A stretch of DNA of 64,000 nucleotides from Algibacter pectinivorans (GTDB lineage: Bacteria > Bacteroidota > Bacteroidia > Flavobacteriales > Flavobacteriaceae), in assembly GCF_900112595.1 (NCBI RefSeq), contig NZ_FOMI01000002.1, positions 450,690 through 514,689 on the forward strand. The letters are read 5' to 3'. The translations under genes were made by a program, and so were the position numbers. This document shows positions 20,312 to 21,163 of the stretch, piece after piece (position 1 is the stretch's first letter; each line of letters starts with the position of its first letter). The notes beneath the pieces are model-generated. The model was given only the letters and a program-made list of their open reading frames with translations, searched no databases and was not told where the DNA came from.

Positions 20312-20380
20312 AACCCTTCCGTCTTTAATTCCTTTTACTGGAATTAAAGCCACCTTCCCTTAAAAAAAAGGGAAGGAATT
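20312..20380 (+). repeat. palindromic repeat, outer copy (69 bp)
   Basis: This 69-bp sequence is identical to 20861-20929. It contains two hairpins: CTTTAATTCC pairs with GGAATTAAAG over 7 nt, and CCTTCCCTT pairs with AAGGGAAGG over six A. It lies outside the mirror-symmetric unit around the DUF559 gene and is oriented like the right-hand copy. Confidence 0.9.
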
Positions 20381-20411
20381 AATTGTTTATAGTTTTAGTG
20401 CTAATATACTT

Positions 20412-20483
20412 GAAGGAACTCTCCTCATTTTAAAGGAGGAGTGGATTTAATTTCGATACCTCGAAAATTAAAGACGAGGTGGT
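20412..20483 (-). repeat. palindromic repeat, diverged inverted copy 3' of the DUF559 gene
   Basis: Read on the minus strand it has the same plan as the 69-bp repeat: AACCACCTCGTCTTTAAT start, a first hairpin around CTTTAAT and ATTAAA (imperfect), the word CCAC, then a hairpin of GAGGAG/CTCCTC type and an AGTTCC end. It is diverged in sequence. It starts 3 bp past the DUF559 stop, so the gene sits between this copy and the one at 20861 in mirror orientation. Confidence 0.75.
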
Positions 20484-20486
20484 TGC

Positions 20487-20849
20487 TTATAAATTTTTGA
20501 AATGAGAACATATTTCTTTTAATACAAATTCAAGATTTTCGAAAACTAATTTGTTTTCAAATCTTATAAGTTTGAAACCTAGGCGCTCTAATCTATTTGT
20601 TCGTTCTAAATCATAGTTTTGTTGAGCAAAATCGAAATGGTATGCTCCATCTAGTTCAATAATAAGTTTTTCTTTAGGGCAGTAGAAGTCTACTATAAAG
20701 TTTTCGATACTATGTTGTCGCCTAAATTTGCGGCCTCCTAATTGCTTTTTTTGAAGGTGTTTCCATAATGTAGCTTCGGCGGAAGTTAAACTTTTTCGAA
20801 GTTCTTTTCTGCGTTGTTCTAAATATTTATAATTATGGATATTTTTCAT
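20487..20849 (-). CDS. DUF559 family protein (Vsr/PD-(D/E)XK-like endonuclease fold)
   Basis: The 120-residue protein is a full-length DUF559. It has an N-terminal helix with LRKSLTSAEATLWKHLQ, then RRQHSIENFIVDFYCP and the acidic core IIELDGAYH. The C-terminal part contains GFKLIRFEN. The D/E residues of the VDFYC and IELDG segments are those expected of a PD-(D/E)XK-like nuclease site. DUF559 proteins resemble the very-short-patch-repair endonuclease, but their targets are not established. The gene is flanked within 3 bp (3' side) and 11 bp (5' side) by palindromic repeats in mirror orientation. This suggests a mobile or repeat-associated gene rather than a housekeeping one. Confidence 0.9.
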   Translation of the reverse strand: MKNIHNYKYLEQRRKELRKSLTSAEATLWKHLQKKQLGGRKFRRQHSIENFIVDFYCPKEKLIIELDGAYHFDFAQQNYDLERTNRLERLGFKLIRFENKLVFENLEFVLKEICSHFKNL

Positions 20850-20860
20850 TTTGTGTTTAA

Positions 20861-20929
20861 AACCCTTCCGTCTTTAATTCCTTTTACTGGAATTAAAGCC
20901 ACCTTCCCTTAAAAAAAAGGGAAGGAATT
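20861..20929 (+). repeat. palindromic repeat, copy 5' of the DUF559 gene (69 bp)
   Basis: This copy is identical over 69 bp to 20312-20380, 549 bp away. Two perfect hairpins (10-bp and 9-bp stems) make it highly structured. It lies 11 bp before the DUF559 start codon (minus strand), where the gene's own promoter would be expected. Confidence 0.9.
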
Positions 20930-21070: not shown

Positions 21071-21163
21071 GCGTTAGGGATTGTAGCGGCATCCTTTTTT
21101 TTGCTGCCATAAATGGCAAAAAAAAGATATAGCGTAAAGCCCGACCCTTTTCGGGTAACGCCC
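21071..21163 (-). repeat. dispersed intergenic element, copy B (93 bp)
   Basis: This is a reverse-oriented copy of the element at 10212. On the minus strand it reads GGGCGTTACC, GGGTCGGGCTTT and CCCTAACGC, with GCGTTA/TAACGC termini. Its centre differs: TGCCAT and ATGGCA with flanking T- and A-runs form an extra hairpin. It lies between the DUF559 repeat unit and gpsA, on the 3' side of gpsA. Confidence 0.75.

Follow-up and report, generated by a model that had tools for sequence, protein, structure and literature searches.

Introduction

One of the closest described counterparts of the locus analysed here is the REPtron, in which a RAYT gene (TnpA-REP) is combined with GTAG-tagged REPs (PMC3733652, PMC6006769). 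RAYT, an HUH Y1 transposase (PF01797), has been assigned as the enzyme of these GTAG repeats and is thought to spread them (PMC3733652). CGTC-tagged REPs are reported in the same source without a dedicated transposase, and are described there as having a stem of 8-9 bp, a loop of 4-5, CGTC at the foot of the palindrome and a CCA tail, mostly in head-to-head dimers (Di Nocera et al. 2013, PMC3733652).

Two further groups of enzymes bear on the DUF559 domain. A DUF559-containing gene has already been placed in the EDxHD family (PMC9403480), which includes the homing endonuclease I-Bth0305I. In Caulobacter, cells without the cytosine methyltransferase ScmA depend on VsrA for an SOS response, a requirement that the authors of that work read as mismatch repair (PMC12907096) and that fits DNA cleavage in vivo. 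A literature search, with subscription papers and preprints outside its scope, returned no paper linking DUF559 or Vsr-like nucleases to REP-type palindromes.

The DUF559 Gene Lies Between Two-Hairpin Repeats

The window, the whole stretch of 64,000 nucleotides analysed here, comes from the genome of Algibacter pectinivorans, designated G000; G001, G003 and G004 denote other genomes of the genus, and G022 and G184 genomes of the family. The features of the locus are the following.

20312..20380, plus strand: repeat A, outer left copy, with tag AACCCTTCCGTC (20312-20323), hairpin 1 (20323-20349), CCA (20350-20352) and hairpin 2 (20353-20376)
20412..20484, minus strand: repeat B, inner left copy, with tag AACCACCTCGTC (20484-20473), hairpin 1 (20472-20446) and hairpin 2 (20441-20421)
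20487..20849, minus strand: gene of a putative DUF559 (PF04480) nuclease, 120 aa, from Pfam, profile and modelled fold
20861..20929, plus strand: repeat A, right copy, identical to 20312-20380
20312..20860, no strand: period of 549 bp made up of A, B and the gene, between the identical A copies; the sister genome G001 is without the period and has one diverged A copy there

The original prediction, made from the letters of the window, described a 120-residue DUF559 gene on the minus strand between structured repeats, two of them identical and one diverged and inverted, each with two hairpins. These descriptions proved accurate: the open reading frame at 20487-20849 matches PF04480 (E 3e-35), the A copies agree at 69 of 69 bases and lie 549 bp apart, and folding and comparison support B as a diverged, inverted unit. 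The AACC ends of both inner copies point to the gene, as described. The outer A copy had been called an extra one; its identity stands, but it is not a separate extra, since outer A (20312, plus) and B (20484, minus) form one head-to-head doublet. The same arrangement is found beside related DUF559 genes (loci L014 and L020). To the right of the gene, the A unit alone was recognised. BLAST at E 0.001 found only these two copies of the 69-mer in the window's own genome.

Within A, a pyrimidine tag (AACCCTTC) is followed by CGTC, hairpin 1, CCA and hairpin 2 (stem CCTTCCC / GGGAAGG); within B, the order is AACCACCT, CGTC, hairpin 1, TCCA and a hairpin 2 with CTCCTCC. Hairpin 1 of the window units has a 10-bp stem and a 7-nt loop. 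Folded as single-stranded DNA, A forms two hairpins at -16 kcal/mol (z -4.55; 0 of 200 shuffles equally good), and B (minus strand, 20412-20483), diverged in sequence, takes up the same layout at -10.3 kcal/mol (z -2.98; 2 of 200 shuffles equally good).

Between the DUF559 unit and gpsA, at 21071-21163, stands a long palindromic repeat distinct from A and B, of the form GCGTTAGGG...GGGTAACGCCC; copies related to it were present in 10 of the 10 genus genomes searched.

Compared with a REPtron, the window system likewise combines a single small nuclease gene with tagged palindromes that lie next to it in inverted orientation, and the DUF559 system shares with it an enzyme-matched repeat type, dispersed solo copies and head-to-head doublets (PMC3733652, PMC6006769). 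The enzyme gene is flanked by its own repeat type, and solo copies are dispersed among the 249 genomes described below, the window's own genome having just the two 69-mer copies. The system is nevertheless not a REPtron by membership, since its enzyme belongs to PF04480 and not to PF01797; its tag is a pyrimidine run ending in CGTC at hairpin 1 instead of GTAG, and its units have two hairpins each. CGTC REPs and the window units are alike in the CGTC next to the stem, the CCA tail and the head-to-head arrangement (20312-20484; solo doublet at L226), whereas the window units place CGTC after a pyrimidine tag, have the stem and loop lengths given above and carry a second, pyrimidine/purine hairpin after CCA (PMC3733652). 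DUF559 is a candidate enzyme for two-hairpin CGTC-tagged REPs. Single-hairpin CGTCATTCC types were not beside the gene at the loci examined, and the claim is therefore limited to the two-hairpin kind; the view that all CGTC REPs belong to DUF559 is unsupported. The CGTCATTCC that lies close to the gene at L067 belongs to a two-hairpin unit, as its hairpin 1.

The Window Protein Resembles PD-(D/E)XK Nucleases

Pfam recognised DUF559 alone in the window protein, over residues 10-116 of 120. A structural model built from 36 sequences had a mean pLDDT of 89.9 and a pTM of 0.83. Its best PDB fold match in Foldseek was 3hrl, a DUF559 crystal structure from N. gonorrhoeae entered as a putative endonuclease-like protein (E 3e-8), followed by the catalytic domain of I-Bth0305I (3r3p; E 4.5e-4, TM 0.62/0.74), and profile matches were obtained to the same two entries (2e-34 and 1.7e-5, respectively). 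The fold match to Vsr (1vsr) was weak (E 0.03), and so was the best PADLOC match (1.6e-4). Across 47 DUF559 sequences, from which members with internal stops were left out, E25, W29, F42, Q45, D54, C57, E65, D67, G68, H71 and D80 are invariant. The modelled fold, together with the invariant E, D, E-x-D and H, suggests that Vsr / PD-(D/E)XK features are present. DUF559 is probably a PD-(D/E)XK-type nuclease related to the EDxHD homing endonucleases, and is a putative DNA-cutting enzyme.

With the EDxHD homing endonucleases, to which the window protein is related by both profile and fold, the system has in common a small nuclease gene and sites without the gene; it differs in that the window gene is free-standing between repeats, with no intron seen. 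With Vsr enzymes the link is the DUF559 domain common to Caulobacter VsrA and the window protein (PMC12907096), besides the weak 1vsr match. No DNA methyltransferase was seen by eye among the open reading frames listed between 17000 and 25000, three of which were run against Pfam.

In loci L007 and L008, a DUF559-like domain lies in open frames of about 864 aa, and comparable frames (about 850-1280 aa) occur in many genomes.

Hairpins Flank DUF559 Genes in Many Bacterial Groups

Related loci were collected by a profile scan of genome contigs with a DUF559 protein alignment, from which the best 80 of at least 533 confirmed relatives were taken. The sample was picked on protein similarity alone, blind to repeats, and 75 of the 80 loci had both flanks analysed. 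A hairpin was defined as a stem of at least 8 bp within 200 bp of the gene, all hairpin types being counted alike, and the controls were open reading frames of these loci at a distance of over 1.5 kb.

Among these best 80 of at least 533 relatives, a hairpin lay within 200 bp at 70 of 75 DUF559 loci versus 68 of 387 control frames (Fisher p 1e-37), and hairpins lay on both sides at 43 of 75 versus 7 of 387, an excess of about 30-fold (Fisher p 1e-32); five of the 75 had no hairpin of at least 8 bp within 200 bp. Hairpin density was highest in the 100 bp adjoining the gene on both sides, at 0.6-0.8 per locus, and beyond 1 kb was mostly 0 to 0.04 per 100 bp. The left and right flanks contained a common repeat (score at least 40) in 37 of 74 DUF559 loci versus 12 of 377 controls. 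The DUF559 family usually adjoins or sits between hairpin-forming repeats of its own kind.

The same repeat orientation around DUF559 genes, as envisaged beforehand, did not emerge. Over 109 loci the flanking repeats pointed inward in 27, outward in 13 and in the same direction in 13, with 18 undetermined and 38 having repeats on one side only; the window locus itself was miscalled as "same direction" in this count because the stem of B is below the cut-off. Direct copies of whole doublets stand on both sides of the gene in several loci. At the Deinococcus loci L052 (2900-3400) and L181, the gene lies inside a doublet whose tags face outward, a layout like that of an IS element with long inverted repeats at its ends.

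By their record titles, repeat-bearing loci include Chlorobiota, Patescibacteria, Uhrbacteria, Komeilibacteria, Latescibacterota, Atribacteria, Acaryochloris, Desulfobacterales, Alphaproteobacteria and Anaerolineales. The DUF559-associated repeat system appears in records of about ten phyla, a count in which the phylum of some record names is our assumption. A two-palindrome repeat at the Shinella DUF559 locus is presumably of the RIME kind of rhizobia, for which we know of no assigned enzyme.

A collection of plasmids was also searched, and 17 of its 38 matches were picked, mainly for taxonomic spread and including two from E. coli. Hairpins were found at 13 of these 17 DUF559 loci versus 5 of 31 control frames, and on both sides at 6 of 17 versus 0 of 31. 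By eye, three of the four misses (L049, L050 and L180) have shorter or imperfect palindromes; the fourth, L060, is an E. coli locus. At the other E. coli locus, L059, the counted hairpin is of a different kind, and by eye both E. coli loci have C-rich palindromes on one side; we take ycjD and fabI to be the gene names for this place. The Novosphingobium locus L180 has the same two-hairpin layout as the window, which extends that layout to the Alphaproteobacteria. A gonococcal DUF559 gene, outside these counts, has palindromes on both sides by eye.

A-Type Hairpins Co-occur with DUF559 in Flavobacteriaceae

A pattern for the A-type hairpin 2 gave 69 matches in 19 of 249 Flavobacteriaceae genomes, and the backward control of this pattern gave none in the 249. 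A DUF559 match was present in all 19 A-hairpin genomes versus 74 of the other 230 (Fisher 2e-9), two of the 19 matches being weak: a fragment with a stop in G022, without which Fisher gives 7e-8, and a domain in a 1042-aa frame in G184. Because matches in the other genomes include long-frame fusions as well, this co-occurrence is a test of the domain and not of the stand-alone gene.

With all 40 DUF559 matches of the 19 genomes taken into account, 19 of the 69 A-type copies, spread over 10 genomes, lay within 1 kb of a match, where about 0.1 would be expected. The remaining 50 copies had no match that close, and in 9 of the 19 genomes no copy did. The A-hairpin search yielded 30 loci, of which 29 were readable; by eye, nearly all of these showed the tag, a CGTC-like foot and hairpin 1, in solo copies (for example the L226 doublet) and gene-side copies alike. 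The repeat is accordingly not limited to the window, solo copies exist elsewhere, its occurrence is not independent of DUF559, and the link between repeat and DUF559 put forward in the original prediction held up in the sequence tests.

In G022 (L205 and L222), nine A-type hairpins were seen, three of them at 480-bp spacing, and the sole DUF559 match is the fragment mentioned above.

Repeats Vary with Their Nuclease

Repeat similarity was compared with nuclease similarity over 118 loci, that is, 131 gathered minus 8 without units and 5 near-duplicates; L061 (the same locus as L004) and L007, L008, L024 and L034 (fusions or truncated) had been left out beforehand. The rank correlation was 0.48, and 0.38 given the 4-mer composition of the host, and 0 of 1000 permutations reached the observed correlation. 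In 58% of the 118 loci, the best repeat match was found among the 10% most similar nucleases.

Hairpin 1 was examined in 65 distinct sequences, gathered by tag, CCA and arm with no pairing required. Watson-Crick pairs made up 357 of 381 stem pairs, with 3 G-T and 21 other; chimeras of hairpin-1 halves reached 51% pairing. G-T makes up 3 of the 24 pairs that are not Watson-Crick and is no more frequent than the other mismatches, which argues for selection at the level of DNA and not of RNA. Hairpin 1 is kept by compensatory changes, probably as DNA. At L065 (Gelidibacter gilvus), many differing two-hairpin units stand in one locus, with compensatory changes among them.

The pyrimidine tag resembles the arm of its own hairpin 2, with a mirror similarity of 0.77 versus 0.69 for tags swapped between loci and a direct similarity of 0.74 versus 0.70. 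An earlier test of mirror against direct matches in 272 arms was ambiguous (77:71 upstream, 86:53 downstream), and when the arms were defined more cleanly, 247 units gave 94 mirror matches, 45 direct ones and 108 ties. Since units within one locus are not independent, a mirror rule for the tag is only suggestive; as a suggestion only, a mirror-image pyrimidine tag could in principle sit on the hairpin as a third strand.

Sister Genomes Have Repeat Sites Without the Gene

Beside gpsA, G003 (gpsA 93% identical) has the DUF559 gene with A and partial B units in the same place as the window, and G001 (98%) has one A unit, the DUF559 gene being absent. In the other seven genus genomes no DUF559, A or B was found within the loci compared (in G004 the neighbouring gene differs). 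The A unit of G001 has 5 mismatches and 1 gap over 68 positions, damaging the hairpins and CCA, and its divergence is about that of its surroundings (94% identity); the A copies of G000 are identical. A second G000 locus, L010, has the order doublet-doublet-DUF559-doublet-doublet, and its counterpart in G001 has one doublet between the same flanks, with part of one hairpin deleted. Neither doublet nor gene was found at this site in eight outgroup loci, three of which reach the site partly or not at all, and no tRNA was found beside L010. Across G001 as a whole there was no DUF559 match at E 0.001, and repeats persist there.

At both loci, the gene with its doublet is precisely present or absent, a single repeat unit being the reference. 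Because G003 carries the gene at the window site, G001 probably lost it, and loss by recombination between direct copies is at least as likely for the empty sites as gain by insertion. As possible counterparts of the empty allele of a homing gene there are these two gene-less sites, each with one repeat unit, but loss accounts for them too. Comparison of the locus across relatives had been proposed in search of an empty site and a target duplication; the former was found in G001, retaining one repeat unit, and no target-site duplication was identified, there being no clean pre-insertion site and the outgroup intergenic regions being too diverged. A DUF559 gene without repeats, which would have spoken against the link, was not found at this position in the genus. 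No clean insertion polymorphisms of solo units were found, their sites lying in variable intergenic DNA.

Where G001 has a solo repeat unit (L158, 1500-1545, and L196), G000 has a short open reading frame; its product looks like a four-helix-bundle protein, which we take to be of the 23S rRNA intervening-sequence type.

Discussion

We read the unit as a small selfish or domesticated system in which a PD-(D/E)XK-type nuclease, DUF559, is paired with cognate palindromic repeats that it would cleave and spread, and we give this reading a probability of roughly 0.6. What the sequences show is that repeat and gene are associated, that this holds broadly, that repeat and nuclease co-vary, that compensatory changes maintain hairpin 1, and that the gene with its doublet is precisely present or absent at two loci. 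The best reading is of a REPtron-like system with a homing-endonuclease-like enzyme, unrelated to RAYT, in place of the HUH transposase, whose catalytic steps may run as follows. The nuclease would recognise the tag plus hairpin when it is extruded or single-stranded and would cleave beside it. Repair from another repeat copy could then place the gene in an empty repeat or establish a repeat at a new site; such repair would homogenise, add or lose repeats, sometimes carrying the gene along. Recombination between direct copies would remove the gene and leave a solo repeat, which would then decay. Units between sufB and sufC in Sphingomonas and between paaD and paaZ in Deinococcus suggest that they enter operons. 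The original prediction, likewise of a REPtron-like unit whose nuclease would nick or cut the palindromes and thereby spread them, is partly supported.

If something else spread the repeats and DUF559 genes collected in them as a recombinogenic or safe harbour, the 50 A-type copies away from any DUF559 match and the persistence of repeats in G001 would be accommodated. Such hitch-hiking seems unlikely to us, because the repeat type follows the nuclease sequence beyond host composition, all 19 A-hairpin genomes have a DUF559 match (two weak), and 6 of the 19 are without Y1 transposases, the gene family searched for as an alternative. Those six genomes also lead us to reject RAYT/IS200 transposases as the movers, as they are with GTAG REPs. 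A Y1_Tnp (PF01797) match does occur in 15 of 21 genomes that were searched, including 13 of the 19 with the repeat, but three of the six without it have a repeat within 1 kb of DUF559, and the two Y1 matches of the window's genome are on a different contig and at a distance of about 268 kb; we see hardly any chance for this explanation.

The palindromes might instead be regulatory parts of the gene, acting as terminators, attenuators or operators that restrain a toxic nuclease, as their crowding in the 100 bp to either side of the gene would allow. Against this stand the G-T pairs of hairpin 1, no commoner than other mismatches and in that unlike an RNA element, the units found away from the gene, and the whole doublets present as direct copies on both sides at several loci. 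Plain terminators are rejected, since hairpin 1 covaries without G-T preference and units recur away from the gene, and a regulatory role of any kind looks improbable. Quite improbable, too, is a very-short-patch or mismatch repair enzyme with repeats beside it by accident. The DUF559 domain of VsrA, with its SOS requirement in the absence of ScmA (PMC12907096), and the weak fold match to Vsr are in its favour, whereas the patchy presence of DUF559 (4 of 10 genus genomes and 93 of 249 family genomes), the position of the gene inside operons and the excess of about 30-fold in both-side hairpins are not.

Beyond the paired nuclease and repeats of the preferred reading lies a wider claim, which we find possible but would not bet on: that a superfamily of palindromic repeats extends across bacteria and that DUF559 is the mobilising enzyme it has so far been missing. 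Its members would include the CGTC units with two hairpins from flavobacteria and one sphingomonad, together with the similar repeats that adjoin DUF559 in rhizobia, cyanobacteria, Deinococcus, Neisseria and E. coli. The enzyme's target would be a DNA structure: the pyrimidine tag, in many cases mirroring the pyrimidine arm of the hairpin, could lie on this hairpin as a third strand.

Bacterial genomes widely contain short palindromic repeats. Should DUF559 drive a second class of them, a family of "unknown function" would be the engine of a repeat system, and experiments with a protein of 120 residues and short DNA oligonucleotides could address what mobilises such repeats.
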